DNA of 64,000 nucleotides from Cocleimonas flava (GTDB lineage Bacteria > Pseudomonadota > Gammaproteobacteria > Thiotrichales > Thiotrichaceae), in contig NZ_SMFQ01000002.1 in NCBI RefSeq assembly GCF_004339015.1, forward strand, positions 559,351 to 623,350. The letters run 5' to 3'. Of the stretch, positions 7,332 to 13,619 are shown piece by piece; position 1 is the first letter of the stretch; every line of letters starts with the position of its first letter. The notes beneath the pieces were generated by a model. It worked only from the letters and a program-made list of their open reading frames with translations, was not told the origin of the DNA and made no database searches. The translations under genes were made by a program, and so were the position numbers.

Positions 7332-7925
7332 TTAGCGAATTGGAAATAATCTAATTATCTTACCCCAGTACTTGTGCTCCAGCGTAACCTCAACAGCAAC
7401 TGGAAGCGCTTTGAGGTCACTCCAGTTTGATTGCCATTGGTCTTTATCGTCCAGCAACCTCAATTCTAATGACTCCACACCCGTCAACAAAGTCATTTCA
7501 ACAGGTTCAAGATCAATATGATCTATGTATGCCCAGCTGTTTCTTGTTAGTACATCTTCTTCAAGATCATAACGTACCCGCTCTAAAGAACTCTTGGCTA
7601 AAGCCAACGGGTTCGAAACACCTGCTTTGGTAAATTCTAAAATGCCTTCAGAGTCATCTGAGTCTAAACCATAAGAAAAAGCAGGCTTAACTTCATCCGC
7701 ATCATAACCAGTCTTTCTCGGTCGACTTACAACCTGACGTATATCTTTTTCTAAAAACAGCATGGTTCGCTGCAATTCTTTTAGTTTCTGTTCTTGCTCA
7801 GTGATAGCCTGATTACTTGTCAGCATATTAGACAATCCAGCATATGCAGTAATTGCCATAAAAGAAAAAATACTCATGGCAACCAAAAGCTCAAGAAGCG
7901 TAAAACCTTTTGCTGCTGATTTCAT
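7332..7925 (-). CDS. gspJ: Type II secretion minor pseudopilin GspJ
   Basis: 197 residues. The N-terminus KGFTLLELLVAMSIFSFMAI is a class III prepilin leader, with cleavage after Gly and Glu at mature position 5, followed by the hydrophobic helix. The length and the LERVRYDLE...TRNSW region fit GspJ, a tip pseudopilin that forms a complex with GspI and GspK in the inner membrane and periplasm. It overlaps gspI by ATGA (7922-7925), so the genes are translationally coupled. It is the last gene of the gspGHIJ group here; no gspK follows, and the other gsp components must be elsewhere. Confidence 0.9.
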   Translation of the reverse strand: MKSAAKGFTLLELLVAMSIFSFMAITAYAGLSNMLTSNQAITEQEQKLKELQRTMLFLEKDIRQVVSRPRKTGYDADEVKPAFSYGLDSDDSEGILEFTKAGVSNPLALAKSSLERVRYDLEEDVLTRNSWAYIDHIDLEPVEMTLLTGVESLELRLLDDKDQWQSNWSDLKALPVAVEVTLEHKYWGKIIRLFPIR

Positions 7926-8293
7926 GGCTTAGTTAAAAAGCCCACAACGGTTACAAATGGATCTAGATCATCTTTACTCTCGCCCCACACTGACAACTCA
8001 ACTCGCTTCACCTTCTCATCATCAGTTTCTATGGTATTTTGCTCCCAATTCCACTTTCTATCAGACATTTCAGATTCACCTTTAACTTTTCCTGTTTTAG
8101 GCCATTCAGAACTAAGTCGTAATTCTGTTATCTTGTTCATCGCAACCCAGCCAGCAAATGTTTTATCTGTCATTCTCGAGGTGTTTTGCGCAGCATTTTC
8201 AATGACTTTGATTGCTCCCCCCATTGCTACCGCAACAACAAACAGCGCAACCATAACCTCTAAAAGCGTAAAACCAGCGTTATTATTTTTCAT
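7922..8293 (-). CDS. gspI: Type II secretion minor pseudopilin GspI
   Basis: 123 residues, the usual size for GspI. The prepilin leader motif AGFTLLEVMVALFVVAVAMG is present at the N-terminus, and the conserved MNKITELRL region (W..MNK) follows the helix, which is characteristic of GspI. It serves as a tip component of the pseudopilus that pushes exoproteins through the outer-membrane secretin. It overlaps gspH by 11 bases upstream and gspJ by 4 bases downstream. Confidence 0.92.
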   Translation of the reverse strand: MKNNNAGFTLLEVMVALFVVAVAMGGAIKVIENAAQNTSRMTDKTFAGWVAMNKITELRLSSEWPKTGKVKGESEMSDRKWNWEQNTIETDDEKVKRVELSVWGESKDDLDPFVTVVGFLTKP

Positions 8294-8783
8294 TTTTGGT
8301 ATAGCTCTGCTCTATCTCACCCGTAGCACTGACTACCATTTTAGAAGAATCTTTTTTTTCAAAGAAAAGTTCATAGGTAAACGGAGTCATCTCACCACTG
8401 GATAAAAATACGATTTGAGGATTTTCGTTTTCGCGCTCTTCTAGATTTGTAGAAATGCCATCCAAATACAACTTAGAGGTAATTGACGAAGGAAATTCTC
8501 GTTTATTGAAAGGTGCTTCTGACAGAGCAGTCCAACTATTATTTTCATTCCTGTAAAAACCATAGCCTTTATCATCGATTTCCAAAGCTATTTCGGCAGA
8601 TTGTAAAATCGATTCATCTTGGGCAAGAGAAATCAACGCACTAAATCGTTCGGTGTTTTCTTTCAGTAATTTATCACCCGCAGGAGGAAAAGATAAAGTC
8701 ACAGCTCCCATAAGAACTGCAACAATAACGATTACCACCATTATCTCTATTAAGGTAAAACCCTTGTGCGAGATCTTCATCAT
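8283..8783 (-). CDS. gspH: Type II secretion minor pseudopilin GspH
   Basis: 166 residues. The leader KGFTLIEIMVVIVIVAVLMG and the following region (FSALISLAQDESILQSAEIALEID) match the GspH/FimT pseudopilin family. GspH is a minor pilin near the pseudopilus tip. Two adjacent ATGs (residues 1 and 2) are possible starts and there is no strong Shine-Dalgarno, consistent with coupling to gspG 15 bases upstream. Confidence 0.9.
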   Translation of the reverse strand: MMKISHKGFTLIEIMVVIVIVAVLMGAVTLSFPPAGDKLLKENTERFSALISLAQDESILQSAEIALEIDDKGYGFYRNENNSWTALSEAPFNKREFPSSITSKLYLDGISTNLEERENENPQIVFLSSGEMTPFTYELFFEKKDSSKMVVSATGEIEQSYTKNEK

Positions 8784-8798
8784 TTATCTAGGATAGAC

Positions 8799-9245
8799 TT
8801 AATTATCTAGTTGCCAGTTACCAATATCATCATCGCTTTGGACACCGTCAGGGCCAAAAGAATAAATATCAACGTCTCCCTTTGCACCTGGGCTTAAATA
8901 GTTATAGGGATTTCCCCAAGGATCAATTGGCGTCTTTTTAGTATAACGTCTCCAGTTTTTAGCTTCAGGATCACCTGACGGCTTGCTTACCAAAGCTTCT
9001 AAGCCTTGATCAGTACTTGGGTAGTTATAATTTTCAGCTCTGTAGATCTCAAGCATTGAAGAAATGCTTTTTATGTCTGTCCCTGCTCTTGTCACATTTG
9101 CCTTATTCAAATTATCGAAAATAGCCGGACCTACTGCGGCAGCCATTACAGCAATAATTACGACAACAACCATCACTTCAAGCAAGGTAAAACCTAGGCT
9201 TTGCGCACGAGACAATGATTGAATGTTATTTCTACTTCTTTTCAT
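8799..9245 (-). CDS. gspG: Type II secretion major pseudopilin GspG
   Basis: 148 residues, the normal GspG size. A basic leader precedes the cleavage motif GFTLLEVMVVVVIIAVMAA. The C-terminal half carries the strongly conserved GspG signature: YPSTDQGLEALV, then IDPWGNPYNYLSPG and a Ca-binding loop YSFGPDGVQSDDDIGNW. It is the main structural subunit of the T2SS pseudopilus. It is first gene of the gspGHIJ group and is divergent from the rhombosortase gene. Confidence 0.96.
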   Translation of the reverse strand: MKRSRNNIQSLSRAQSLGFTLLEVMVVVVIIAVMAAAVGPAIFDNLNKANVTRAGTDIKSISSMLEIYRAENYNYPSTDQGLEALVSKPSGDPEAKNWRRYTKKTPIDPWGNPYNYLSPGAKGDVDIYSFGPDGVQSDDDIGNWQLDN

Positions 9246-9427
9246 TTACTTTCCCTACAATCTTTTGAATGAATCTAATAAATTAAGTTTTCAGGCAAGT
9301 TACCGTCATAAACTTATCAAAACTTTTACTTCAAAGGCTCAAAGAATTTATACTATTCACTTTCTCTGAAAGTCTAATTCTTTAAAATGACGGCATTTTG
9401 CCATATTTTATACAAGGTTGTTTAAAA

Positions 9428-10039
9428 ATGATCAAATTGAAACAACCGCTTTTCTTGGCAATAATTTCACTTACCGTAGTATTTTTTATTGCCCAACTCC
9501 TTCAAAATGAGTTCGTTTTTAATCGTGGGCAAATTGAATCTGGGCAATGGTGGAGAGTTATTGGCGGTAATTTAACGCACTCAAACTACCCACACTTATT
9601 TTTAAACCTCAGCGGGCTTTGGATCTTAGCCTTATTATTCATAGACACCCTGAAGGCAAAAACATTCATTTTCTGCAGTGTTTTTCTTTGTCTAATTGTG
9701 GGACTTGGTCTTTATTATTTCACCCCTGAACTACATATTTATTATGGTTTTTCTGGCGCTCTTTATGGATTATTTTTTATCGGCGGTGTAAACGCGGCTT
9801 TGAATAAAGATGTTTTTACTGGTATATCAGTAGCTACACTCATCCTAGGCAAAATCACCTGGGATTTTTTTCAGGGAGGAAGCAGTTCTAGCGAGGAACT
9901 CATAGGCATTCCTGTCGCAACTGACGCGCATCAATATGGCTTGATTGGAGCAATCATAATCAGCATTTTATTGTTTATTTTGCACCTTAAAAGAAATAAC
10001 AATCCATCTAAAGACCAAAAGTCACCCCCCCACTTATAG
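9428..10039 (+). CDS. rrtA: Rhombosortase-type rhomboid intramembrane protease
   Basis: About 203 residues from the ATG at 9428, which has AAGG upstream; an in-frame TTG at 9398 would add 10. It has about six membrane helices. Family features seen: QWWRVIGGNLTHSNYPHLFLNLSGL in the first loop, the catalytic Ser in YGFSGALYGL, and the partner His in DAHQYGLIGA near the C-terminus. Rhombosortases process proteins with a GlyGly-CTERM tail, many of which are type II secretion substrates, so the place beside gspGHIJ fits. No GlyGly-CTERM protein is visible in the window. The last residues (SPPHL) and the stop codon are encoded by a copy of the dispersed repeat. Confidence 0.85.
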   Translation: MIKLKQPLFLAIISLTVVFFIAQLLQNEFVFNRGQIESGQWWRVIGGNLTHSNYPHLFLNLSGLWILALLFIDTLKAKTFIFCSVFLCLIVGLGLYYFTPELHIYYGFSGALYGLFFIGGVNAALNKDVFTGISVATLILGKITWDFFQGGSSSSEELIGIPVATDAHQYGLIGAIIISILLFILHLKRNNNPSKDQKSPPHL

Positions 10040-10049
10040 GCACTTTTTT
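10021..10049 (-). repeat. Dispersed G-rich repeat overlapping the rhombosortase 3' end
   Basis: C-rich on the plus strand: CACCCCCCCACTTATAGGCA followed by a T-run. It spans the last five codons and TAG stop of the rhombosortase gene, so the element supplies the stop codon. It sits between convergent genes. Confidence 0.9.
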
Positions 10050-10060
10050 CATATTCCATT

Positions 10061-10834
10061 TTAATAGGTTAATCCTGTAAGCAACCCATCTTCTATCCAT
10101 TGCGATAAAAAACCCGCTATTCGTGCAGGAGCATGTTCAGCATCTACCCACTCACACACACCCTCGCACAAGCCTTCGAAGTTTCCTGATTGCATAGCAG
10201 AATCTAAAGCCCATGCTTCATCGACATCTAACGATCGATAATAGTTGAGCAATTCTTTTCTCCAGACTACCCAGCCTAATGGATAGTCTAATTTTTCTGG
10301 AGGAATTGGGTCTAACTGTTCATCAATCGCCGCCCAAAGCTGCGGAGTGTTCCATTCAAAATTTATTCGTGACACCGATGGATGAAAGTCAAATTGTAGT
10401 TGCCCCCAGTTTTCAATCGGTATTTGCTGCAGTGATTCCATTGAGATCGGTGCAGTATTATTACTGTCAAAAGCTTTTCTTTGTGCCCACTCGAATCTCG
10501 CCATTTCTGCCAGCACAGGAACATCGGAATATTTCTTTGCTAAAAATTCCTCAAGATGGCTACCAAAATAACGAAGAGAAAAGTGATGCGATGGATGAGC
10601 CTTCATATACGCGTAACTCATCGTATAAAAATCATCATCGCCTAGTAAAGTATGCACAGATGGGTAATTTTCGGATAACGCATCAATTAAACGATAGCCA
10701 TAGCCTGCGCCATAGATATCCAAACGAACTTTAGCGCTCACTTCTGCCGTTGACACAATGTCAGTTTGAATAGCATCATCCTTTTCTAGCAGAAAAGACA
10801 TCATGCTTTTTTGCAGTCTATATAGCTCGCTCAT
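10061..10834 (-). CDS. bufC: DUF2063 partner protein of MNIO enzyme (BufC/HvfC-like)
   Basis: 257 residues. The N-terminal 90 residues match the DUF2063 'putative DNA-binding' domain in layout (LQKSMMSFLLE..., RLDIYGAGYGYRLIDALSENYP, LLGDDDFYTMSYAYMKAHPS), which is known to act as the peptide-recruiting partner of DUF692 oxidases. The rest is a less conserved helical domain. It overlaps the DUF692 gene by 4 bases (10831-10834), as expected for an obligate pair. The role is to deliver the BufA2-like precursor to the oxidase. There is no DoxX-like gene (bufD) in the operon. Confidence 0.85.
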   Translation of the reverse strand: MSELYRLQKSMMSFLLEKDDAIQTDIVSTAEVSAKVRLDIYGAGYGYRLIDALSENYPSVHTLLGDDDFYTMSYAYMKAHPSHHFSLRYFGSHLEEFLAKKYSDVPVLAEMARFEWAQRKAFDSNNTAPISMESLQQIPIENWGQLQFDFHPSVSRINFEWNTPQLWAAIDEQLDPIPPEKLDYPLGWVVWRKELLNYYRSLDVDEAWALDSAMQSGNFEGLCEGVCEWVDAEHAPARIAGFLSQWIEDGLLTGLTY

Positions 10835-11664
10835 TGAGCAGATCTCTTGTTGGCTGCAGATATTTCTTTCGCCATTTTCAATTCTTTCATCAAATAAGGC
10901 AATTCGGGAATATTATCATCACGCTCGATCATCGTTGAAACACCATCGAAACGTTTAACCGCCTCTGCGTATAAATCCCAAACGCCTTCAACTACATCGT
11001 TATCGTGAGTATCAATAATGTACCCATCATATTGACTATGCCCAGCAAGATGATGCTGCTGAACACGCTCAGGGGGAACGCCATCAAGATAATCCAATGG
11101 ATCAAAGCCGTGATTGAATGCGCTAACGAATATATTATTAATATCCAGGAGCATTAGACTGTCTGATTCTTCAGCAATAGCGGTAATAAATTCCCACTCG
11201 GTCATGCCCTCAGATTGTTTGTAGCTTATATAGCTTGATACATTTTCTATCAAAATACGCCTTTCAAGATAATCCTGAGTCTGGCGAATTTTTTCAGACA
11301 CAAATTTAACCGTTTCTTCTGTATAGGGTAATGGCAATAAATCATGAGCATTGACACCATCCAAGCCGGTAAAGCACAGGTGATCAGAAATCCAGTGCGC
11401 TTTGGTACGATCCGCCAACGACTTTACCTGACTCAAATATTTCAAATCTATAGGGTCACTGCTGCCGATTGACATGGATACTCCGTGCATGACAACCGGA
11501 TAACGCTCACAAATCTGATCCAGGAAATAAAGTGGCTTCCCACCCTCGACCAAATAGTTTTCAGTGAGAATTTCGAACCAATCAACGTCAGGAGAGGTAT
11601 CGAGTATCGCATTATAGTGTTCTTTACGTAGGCCTAAGCCAAAGCCAAGAGATGGATATTTCAT
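10831..11664 (-). CDS. bufB: DUF692 multinuclear non-heme iron oxidase (MNIO), RiPP-modifying (BufB/HvfB-like)
   Basis: 277 residues with the TIM-barrel DUF692 signatures: GFGLGLRKEHYNAIL at the start, DWFEILTENYLVEGG, then HGVSMSIGS, SDHLCF, the metal-binding ENVSSYISY, LLDINNIFVSAFNHG, HLAGHSQYDGYIIDTHD and TMIERDDNIPEL. These His, Asp and Glu residues bind two or three irons. MNIOs convert Cys residues of a precursor peptide to thiooxazole or oxazolone/thioamide groups. The gene lies between the Cys-rich precursor (78 bases upstream) and the DUF2063 partner. Function is secure by context; which Cys are modified is not. Confidence 0.92.
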   Translation of the reverse strand: MKYPSLGFGLGLRKEHYNAILDTSPDVDWFEILTENYLVEGGKPLYFLDQICERYPVVMHGVSMSIGSSDPIDLKYLSQVKSLADRTKAHWISDHLCFTGLDGVNAHDLLPLPYTEETVKFVSEKIRQTQDYLERRILIENVSSYISYKQSEGMTEWEFITAIAEESDSLMLLDINNIFVSAFNHGFDPLDYLDGVPPERVQQHHLAGHSQYDGYIIDTHDNDVVEGVWDLYAEAVKRFDGVSTMIERDDNIPELPYLMKELKMAKEISAANKRSAQ

Positions 11665-11742
11665 AGTGAAACCTTAAGGCAAAAAAATACCCGATACAAC
11701 ATAATTGATCGGGCACTTCATAAATCTACTTACTTTTTACGA

Positions 11743-12033
11743 TTAAGCCTGACCTAGCACTTTTCCGCCTTTATCAGCACAATCAGTAGCTGATGCTTTT
11801 ACCCAGCCCTGACCTTTACAGCTATTAAGACCTTTACATGCACTTGTAGCTGTTGCGCACGCGCTGGTTCCTTTACAAGAGTTTATCCCGGCACACTTTA
11901 CGTCAGCCATTTTCTTATCTTTCGACATCGATGCTGATTTTGCGCTATCACCACCAGTAGAACAGCCTGCTAACAATAATGCTGCCGCTGCTGAAGCCAA
12001 TGTAAATCCTGTTACTTTAGATGCTGTTTTCAT
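11743..12033 (-). CDS. bufA2: BufA2-like Cys-rich RiPP precursor (bufferin-type metallophore)
   Basis: 96 residues with AAGGAGAAAG upstream of the ATG. The N-terminus is a signal sequence ending in a lipobox-like LLAGC (Cys24). The mature part carries six Cys (47, 53, 59, 66, 72, 85) in a repeated pattern, INSCKG...SACKGLNSCKGQGW. This matches my recollection of the BufA2 family of periplasmic bufferins, whose Cys are turned into copper-binding thiooxazoles by the adjacent MNIO. The operon order precursor-MNIO-DUF2063 supports this. If the lipobox is used, the product would be tethered to a membrane, whereas bufferins are usually described as soluble periplasmic peptides. Confidence 0.85.
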   Translation of the reverse strand: MKTASKVTGFTLASAAAALLLAGCSTGGDSAKSASMSKDKKMADVKCAGINSCKGTSACATATSACKGLNSCKGQGWVKASATDCADKGGKVLGQA

Positions 12034-12063
12034 TTTGTATCTTTCTCCTTGGTATAATTAAAT

Positions 12064-12093
12064 GACCATGCTTTGATATCTTGAAACATGGTC
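12064..12093. promoter_or_regulatory. Inverted repeat upstream of the bufA2-like gene (possible operator)
   Basis: Perfect 7-bp arms GACCATG (12064-12070) and CATGGTC (12087-12093) separated by 16 bases, starting about 30 bases before the precursor start codon. The position suits either a regulator site or a 5'-UTR hairpin. No regulator gene is adjacent. Confidence 0.35.
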
Positions 12094-12218
12094 GATAACC
12101 TGCAAGATGCAAATCATCCAAATACCTTACGTATCTAATATTTTTTAGATGCATAGCAGCTTGGTTTATATCCAGGCTTTAGAGAAAGTTTTTTCACGTA
12201 GTAGCTAAATCAGCACAA

Positions 12219-13505
12219 TTAACTTAACTTTTGCTCACGAGAAACTGCGCGATGTCCGATATCTCTTCGAACATATACATTATCCCAGCTAATTTTATCA
12301 ACTACAGCATAAGCTACCTGTTGAGCCTCGCTGACACTGTCTCCTAAACCTACTGCGCATAAAACTCTTCCGCCGTTTGTTTTGAGCTCGCCATCATCAA
12401 CCGTTCCGGCGTGAAAAACTTTACTGTTTTCAGTCTCTTCAGGAATACCTGTAATAACATCGCCTTTGTTGTATTTATCAGGGTAACCACCAGCCGCTAA
12501 AACAACACCTAATGAAGATCGTTGATCCCATTCAATTTGCGCTTCATCTAACTTTTCATCTAAAGCAGCTTCAATTAAATCGACCATGCTAGACTTTAGA
12601 CGCATCATAATAGGCTGTGTTTCCGGATCACCAAAACGCACATTATATTCAAGTACTTTTGAATTCCCCTTATCATCGACCATTACACCCGCGTACAAAA
12701 ATCCTGTAAACGGATGCCCTTCATCAGCCATGCCTTTAAGCGTTGGTTCGATTACATCTTTCATTATTTTCTGGCTAATTTCATCAGTCACCACTGGTGC
12801 AGGAGAATAAGCACCCATACCGCCTGTATTTGGACCAAGATCGCCTTCATCTCTCGCTTTATGATCTTGAGAAGACGCCATTGGCAAATAATTCTTTCCA
12901 TCCGCAATCACAATAATGCTAGCTTCTTCGCCCACTAAAAACTCTTCTATGACGACACGATGCCCTGCATCACCAAATGCATTACCCGCCAACATATCTT
13001 TAACCGCGGCGATTGCTTCATCTTCGGTTTCCGCCAATATCACGCCTTTACCCGCAGCGAGCCCATCCGCTTTGACTACGATTGGAGCACCTTGCTCTTT
13101 TATGTAAGCAATAGCTTCATCAATATCAGTGAAATTCCCATAAGCAGCAGTAGGAATATTATGTCTGGCAAAAAAGTCTTTAGAAAAAGCCTTAGAGCCT
13201 TCTAATTGAGCTGCACCTTTTGAAGGACCAAAACATCTGAGTCCGTTCTCAGCAAAAAGGTCAACGACTCCCTTAACCAATGGCGCTTCTGGGCCAACGA
13301 CAGTTAGATCAACATTATTCTCTTGAGCAAACGCCAATAAACCCTCGATATCTTCTGCGCCGATATCTACATTTTCAACTTTTTCTTCTAAAGCCGTTCC
13401 TGCATTACCTGGGGCTACAATGACTTTCTCTACTCGCTTTGATTGAGCTATTTTCCATGCCAATGCATGCTCTCTTCCACCACTACCGATGAGTAGTACT
13501 TTCAT
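12219..13505 (-). CDS. purD: Phosphoribosylamine-glycine ligase
   Basis: 428 residues, the normal PurD length. It begins MKVLLIGSGGREHALAWK and has the ATP-grasp signatures (GLAAGKGV, SQDHKARDEGDLGPNTGGMGAYSP, NVRFGDPETQ). It joins 5-phosphoribosylamine to glycine, using ATP, to give GAR in purine synthesis. purH, its usual neighbour, is not adjacent. It is divergent from ispH. Confidence 0.97.
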   Translation of the reverse strand: MKVLLIGSGGREHALAWKIAQSKRVEKVIVAPGNAGTALEEKVENVDIGAEDIEGLLAFAQENNVDLTVVGPEAPLVKGVVDLFAENGLRCFGPSKGAAQLEGSKAFSKDFFARHNIPTAAYGNFTDIDEAIAYIKEQGAPIVVKADGLAAGKGVILAETEDEAIAAVKDMLAGNAFGDAGHRVVIEEFLVGEEASIIVIADGKNYLPMASSQDHKARDEGDLGPNTGGMGAYSPAPVVTDEISQKIMKDVIEPTLKGMADEGHPFTGFLYAGVMVDDKGNSKVLEYNVRFGDPETQPIMMRLKSSMVDLIEAALDEKLDEAQIEWDQRSSLGVVLAAGGYPDKYNKGDVITGIPEETENSKVFHAGTVDDGELKTNGGRVLCAVGLGDSVSEAQQVAYAVVDKISWDNVYVRRDIGHRAVSREQKLS

Positions 13506-13619
13506 AGTAATTCCTATTTATAAACTGTTTTTAAATTTAACCAGCGCGAATTTTAACAAAACTATGCTTTCAGTTGTTACAATAAATTTTTTATGTGAAT
13601 CTTTTACGAGACTAAAGCA

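Follow-up and report, generated by a model that had tools for sequence, protein, structure and literature searches.

A bufferin-2 operon of Cocleimonas flava with a lipobox precursor and a putative ECF-type promoter that is common to envelope thiol- and methionine-redox genes

The 64-kb stretch of DNA analysed here (64,000 nucleotides; the window), from the marine bacterium Cocleimonas flava, contains a bufA2-bufB-bufC operon on its minus strand, at the place where an earlier sequence-only reading had put it. We propose, with a probability of about 0.6 and mostly on the grounds of sequence, that this operon makes a thiooxazole-containing, copper-buffering bufferin-2 that would be lipid-tethered in the outer membrane and induced under envelope redox or metal stress. 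New here are a putative ECF-type promoter and regulon of Buf2, a second, unlinked BufA2 that has no lipobox, and a terminator-like hairpin that separates the precursor gene from the maturase gene; the sequence-only reading contained no ECF-type promoter, and the soluble paralogue of the precursor lies outside the window. The features of the locus are the following.

12128-12153, minus strand: putative promoter of the ECF-sigma type (TGCATC-N16-CGTA), located 94 nt upstream of the bufA2 start; the only match in the window (0.14 expected)
12034-12127, minus strand: 5' leader, predicted to form two hairpins ahead of the AAGGAG ribosome site
11743-12033, minus strand: bufA2, precursor of 96 aa; NF050166 (Cu_RiPP_BufA2), 84.2 bits (cut-off 60); signal peptide bearing the lipobox L21-A22-G23-C24, then a tether of 22 residues and a core with C47, C53, C59, C66, C72 and C85
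11676-11719, minus strand: terminator-like hairpin with T-run in the bufA2-bufB gap; probable attenuator
10831-11664, minus strand: bufB, MNIO bufferin maturase of 277 aa; NF050167, 364.1 bits (cut-off 310); PF05114, 356.7 bits
10061-10834, minus strand: bufC, DUF2063 partner (PME-type 1) of 257 aa; PF09836, 62.2 bits (cut-off 27.2)

The curated models and the gene order supported the assignment of the operon to the bufferin-2 type. The BufA2, BufB, PF05114 and PF09836 models all scored above their curated cut-offs and the genes follow the order precursor-MNIO-DUF2063, as had been proposed from the sequence for a three-gene bufferin-type operon. The BufA2-like six-Cys pattern suggested at the same time was equally borne out by the NF050166 score and by the core itself. 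The precursor has seven Cys, the lipobox Cys24 and six core Cys, and the latter were invariant in 41 of 41 aligned order-level precursors. Against the HvfC model NF050145, BufC scored 30.1 bits, below the cut-off of 142. The bufB and bufC genes overlap by 4 nt, bufA2 and bufB are separated by 78 nt, and purD (13505-12219, minus strand, named by eye) lies upstream of bufA2 after a gap of 185 nt. BufB could be aligned with the 3bww, 8hci and MbnB chains across conserved stretches, which we take to be the carriers of the iron ligands. By sequence, no convincing PDB relative was found for BufC (best E 0.39) or BufA2 (best E 0.11), and the AlphaFold model of BufA2 was weak (mean pLDDT 61.7, pTM 0.39) and too poor for a fold search. 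Rfam gave no match at the gathering threshold in 9000-13600. Cocleimonas is placed in Thiotrichales/Thiotrichaceae by NCBI taxonomy, and the closest named genome record is that of an uncultured Cocleimonas (L007), with a precursor 96% identical.

The absence of a DoxX-type bufD, already pointed out from the sequence, was confirmed: a convergent rhombosortase gene (9398-10039, plus strand; TIGR03902, 140.5 bits) stands directly behind bufC instead. This gene also adjoins four pilin-like genes (7332-9245, minus strand) that resemble type II secretion pseudopilins. The C. flava genome (G000; other G numbers are compared genomes and L numbers extracted loci) has five DoxX-family genes, all away from the bufA2 operon, with one of them inside a separate, complete Buf1 operon (DUF2282, MNIO, DUF2063, DoxX; L004 1034-3802, G000:C1 about 1197000-1199800). 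Contig C1 carries the only two MNIO matches of the genome, namely bufB and the one in the Buf1 operon. At the level of the order, a DoxX homologue was found behind 0 of 45 precursor loci, which is a weak test, made with a single query and with flanks cut off. Since doxX is counted in the published bufferin cluster core, we state that it is treated here as common, not obligatory, and that the name "Buf2 precursor" is used independently of it.

The LLAGC24 motif, with K2, K6 and an uncharged h-region, satisfied a scripted Prosite-type lipoprotein rule (a pattern rule, not a dedicated signal predictor), and the same rule recognised the n-region, h-region and lipobox of the Sec signal. To place this signal in its family, precursors were classed in an order sample (63 genomes searched, 22 with a listed Buf2 match above the model cut-off) and in a class-wide sample (369 genomes searched, 65 with such a match, own genome included). 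The classing left out 5 of 133 rows (truncated, fragment, degenerate core, off-pattern core and DUF2282-like); by hand, one row was re-labelled lipobox and seven were assigned to the membrane-fusion class. The order precursors (n = 43) comprised 34 lipobox forms, 8 soluble forms and 1 membrane fusion, and those of the class sample outside the order (n = 85) comprised 16 lipobox forms (about 19%), 63 soluble forms and 6 membrane fusions. Thus, the lipobox-like signal noticed earlier stood, both by the rule and by its frequency in the order, where the lipobox forms also have the longer tether. That it would be unusual did not stand: about 16% of Buf2 precursors, close to the share in our class sample, have been predicted to carry lipoprotein signals (Antoine et al. 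2025, PMC12452194), and lipidation has been obtained experimentally for other MNIO peptides, DybA and NedA (PMC12636315, preprint). Novelty of the lipobox was therefore ruled out; it is clade-typical in the order Thiotrichales and already described in general. We have also observed Buf2 domains behind membrane segments, like the MerC fusions in print (L213, L215, L217, L220, L224 and L144; class sample, once in the order).

The residue at position +2 of the lipobox Cys, across the 50 lipobox precursors, was Ser (15), Gly (15), Ala (11), Thr (7), Gln (1) or Val (1), and Asp in none. By the Lol rule of E. coli, a +2 residue other than Asp favours the outer membrane; hence this location would be favoured here if that rule applies. 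The stretch from the h-region to the core had a median of 25.5 residues in the lipobox forms of the order (n = 34) versus 16.5 in the soluble ones (n = 8; p 4e-5), whereas in the class sample the difference was weak (p 0.07).

The putative promoter of bufA2 belongs to a motif, TGCATC-N16/17-CGTA, that is common to the leaders of order-level Buf2 precursors. It was first noticed by eye in 18 leaders, in which its presence is not independent evidence; genome-wide matches, ECF genes, other genera and the class sample provided independent tests. Allowing one mismatch and 250 nt upstream, the motif preceded 31 of the 43 order precursors (14 exact), in a search that also took in the discovery leaders, and 4 of the 85 class precursors outside the order (all 4 exact). 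Several of the 12 order precursors without it at one mismatch were internal genes of tandem arrays. Genome-wide, there were 11 exact matches in the own genome versus 4 for the reversed pattern, and 474 versus 142 when the 63 genomes were summed. A sigma-70 promoter was rejected as a candidate, the single site in 9900-12300 (6.9 expected) being on the plus strand inside bufC.

An exact copy of the motif was also present 54 nt upstream of an ECF sigma gene (G000:C2:1242406-1242945, 180 aa) that is unlinked to bufA2. Among the best 25 NCBIfam models listed for its product, only the superfamily model TIGR02937 scored above cut-off, the second best being SigK. The gene behind it gave sub-threshold matches to RskA_C (25.2 bits, cut-off 29.4) and to the antisigma model NF052375 (40.1 bits, cut-off 100). 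Among G000-G022, and for the matches listed, an ECF match with the exact motif 53-141 nt upstream occurred in 14 of the 20 genomes having an ECF match. Of the 45 genomes that have both genes, eight (G009, G038, G048, G051, G052, G053, G059 and G061) had an ECF match no more than 5 kb away from an MNIO gene; the G009 match was 82% identical, and the others, at 49-56% identity, are not necessarily orthologues. From the conserved motif, which also precedes the sigma gene, we infer that a trans-encoded ECF sigma factor controls bufA2. In the available text of Antoine et al. (PMC12452194), sigma genes are reported in Buf1 but not in Buf2 clusters, which fits a regulator encoded in trans.

For four genomes that we picked from the genus (G000, G007, G010 and G011), all exact matches (45 places) were inspected. 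Nearly half (23/45) lay before an ECF sigma gene (in 4/4 genomes) or a gene for a bufferin, MsrA, MsrB, a redoxin, a thioredoxin-fold protein, DsbC, DsbD, a DsbA-like protein or a rhodanese. In the own genome these were the ECF, bufA2, MsrA, MsrB, redoxin and thioredoxin-fold genes, the Dsb and rhodanese genes coming from G007 and G010. Of the other 22 matches, 2 preceded related FG-GAP proteins; the remaining 20 fell inside coding sequence, upstream of small or different genes (by eye, rpsM and one resembling UbiG) or had nothing recognisable behind them. Among the 45 places we saw no classical copper gene. The FG-GAP-repeat protein, probably exported, has the ECF-type promoter in two species (L239:616-1425 and L269) and adjoins msrA in the own genome. 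Probably exported small Cys/Met/His-rich proteins were also seen behind the same ECF-type promoter in two genus genomes (L292:1077-1397 and L279:1619-1957); they have no Pfam match and are candidate metal-binding peptides. Among the papers listed in the literature searches, mostly open-access ones, neither this regulon nor its motif turned up; the matches were the Caulobacter sigma-F for Buf1, the msrAB regulons of Haemophilus and Neisseria, and Cupriavidus papers. The Haemophilus and Neisseria msrAB ECF regulons are tied to an MNIO operon.

The own genome contains a second BufA2 of 88 aa (contig C4, L001/L128), unlinked to the window operon, with a near-identical core and with ...LGGMSTASA where the window copy has ...LAGC. 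Its promoter motif has one mismatch, and the motif is exact before the soluble copies of G008 and G010. In the precursor tree, the seven soluble forms of the genus made up a single clade (98/97) among the lipobox forms of the order; the enclosing fork (40 rows) had a support of 85/70, which is not strong, and the tree was midpoint-rooted and built on few columns, with only 14 class rows added as outgroups. Because the soluble clade is nested among lipobox forms, the simplest reading would be that it arose by loss of the lipobox. The eighth soluble form of the order (G004, L137) grouped with class rows. The soluble copy was on a different contig from every MNIO match in five genomes of the genus (G000, G004, G008, G010 and G011), some of these assemblies being fragmented. 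When five soluble copies were compared for synteny, the neighbourhood was common to G000 and G011 and only partly kept in the others. A special pairing of lipobox and soluble forms was discarded: genomes with both forms were not above label shuffling, either in the order (7 vs 5.8, p 0.32) or in the class sample (7 vs 5.2, p 0.22). Several precursors per genome were commoner in class genomes with a lipobox form (7/15 vs 8/47; Fisher p 0.035, one weak test among several).

Two RNA elements of the operon were considered. Terminator-like hairpins such as that between bufA2 and bufB were present in 22 of 60 bufA-bufB gaps of 25-260 nt (order and class; 2.7 expected from mononucleotide shuffles), including 6 of 14 in the order, and the one in the window is probably an attenuator. 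A partial terminator at this position would leave the precursor in excess of the enzyme. The bufA2 leader had a folding z of -3.7, the mean over 31 leaders being only -1.3, and the close relative G011 keeps the same leader layout with different arm sequences; the bufA2 leader hairpins possibly protect the mRNA.

We have weighed these data against other explanations of the peptide. The lipidated bufferin might act in oxidant or thiol defence instead of copper buffering: working alongside MsrA and MsrB, its thiooxazole and Cys groups would be sacrificed at the outer membrane to scavenge reactive chlorine or other oxidants. The genes that share the motif in the four genomes, from the methionine sulfoxide reductases to the rhodanese, speak for such a role, and in H. 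influenzae RpoE2 governs msrAB under hypochlorite (PMC7907618). Against it, related 5-thiooxazole peptides bind copper (PMC13097082) and, in the account available, the Caulobacter sigma-F bufferin operon responds to Cr and Cd and not to peroxides, paraquat or diamide (PMC3511200). We regard this explanation as rather improbable; still, the genes of the regulon would suit a response to oxidants or thiol stress no less than one to copper, and oxidant defence may be the main role.

The two remaining explanations concern the fate of the Cys residues. A lipid-anchored metal-binding protein in which the core Cys are left unmodified in vivo or are joined in disulfides would agree with the weak AlphaFold model of the precursor; with MNIO and partner genes directly behind bufA2 and the conserved MNIO stretches present, we find it very doubtful. 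It is also highly unlikely, in our view, that signal peptidase I cuts the precursor to release a soluble periplasmic bufferin, with Cys24 incidental. Soluble forms do prevail among the class-sample Buf2 precursors (63/85) and one exists in the own genome, but the canonical LAGC lies directly behind the h-region, most order precursors share it (34/43), and in the genus clade all seven soluble forms carry an AxA site (ANA, ASA or AIA; by eye) and a shorter linker in its place.

Hence, we favour a copper-buffering bufferin-2 tethered to the outer membrane, and its mode of action may be outlined as follows. Under envelope stress, an RskA-like anti-sigma factor would release the ECF sigma factor and bufA2 would be transcribed from TGCATC-N16-CGTA, as the motif suggests, with the hairpin terminator after bufA2 passing only part of the transcription into bufBC, so that precursor would exceed maturase. 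In the cytosol, BufB-BufC would convert part of the core's six Cys into 5-thiooxazoles by oxidation, as expected from the family. After Sec export, Lgt would put diacylglycerol on Cys24, Lsp would cut before it, and with Ser and not Asp at +2, Lol would move the peptide to the inner face of the outer membrane. The tethered core, on its 22-residue linker, may then bind Cu(I) near the membrane, limiting the copper-driven oxidation of envelope thiols and methionines; for those that are oxidised, repair would fall to the regulon's MsrA, MsrB, redoxin and Dsb-type proteins. Both the thiooxazoles and the copper binding are carried over in this scheme from characterised relatives. The window BufBC probably also matures the soluble paralogue (L128) in trans, which would give a free and an anchored pool.

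A tentative extension, which we think has less chance of being right than wrong, is a two-compartment system. One maturase pair would modify an outer membrane-anchored and a free bufferin-2, the latter derived by loss of the lipobox Cys; a trans-acting ECF/RskA-type sigma system would co-induce both with periplasmic methionine and disulfide repair, and copper might pass between the mobile and fixed pools or be shed with outer-membrane vesicles.

The operon resembles Bufferin-2 as described by Antoine et al. (2025, PMC12452194) in its six-Cys core, MNIO and DUF2063 genes and Sec signal, including the subset with predicted lipoprotein signals; precursor genes apart from MNIO genes and tandem precursors were also reported there. 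Unlike the published Bufferin-2, as far as that text describes it, the operon here lacks doxX, has an ECF-type promoter in common with a putative trans-encoded ECF/anti-sigma pair, and is accompanied by a soluble paralogue that appears to have lost the lipobox. The Caulobacter sigma-F/NrsF regulon is similar in placing two bufferin operons under an ECF sigma factor, but its precursors are Buf1 (DUF2282), its anti-sigma factor is NrsF, sigF stands beside one operon, and it includes a YedY-type sulfite oxidase gene where the Cocleimonas regulon would have MsrA/MsrB and thiol-redox genes (PMC3511200). DybA and NedA are, likewise, MNIO-modified peptides lipidated via the general lipoprotein pathway, as demonstrated in E. 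coli, although their cores are chryseobasin-like and oxazolin ones, not Buf2 (PMC12636315, preprint). Methionine sulfoxide reductases are also under ECF control in the Haemophilus RpoE2 and Neisseria SigE msrAB regulons, which differ in belonging to ECF group 13 with small zinc anti-sigma factors (PMC7907618).

These results provide a candidate regulator for Buf2 bufferins, for which the published survey, in its available text, found none in the clusters (PMC12452194). They place the peptide with envelope thiol and methionine redox genes, so that a single ECF gene and a single promoter would allow the question of copper or oxidant to be put to the test. Finally, the two natural forms, one with a lipobox and one soluble, are nearly alike in their core and would be a ready system for studying the effect of membrane tethering on a copper-buffering peptide.
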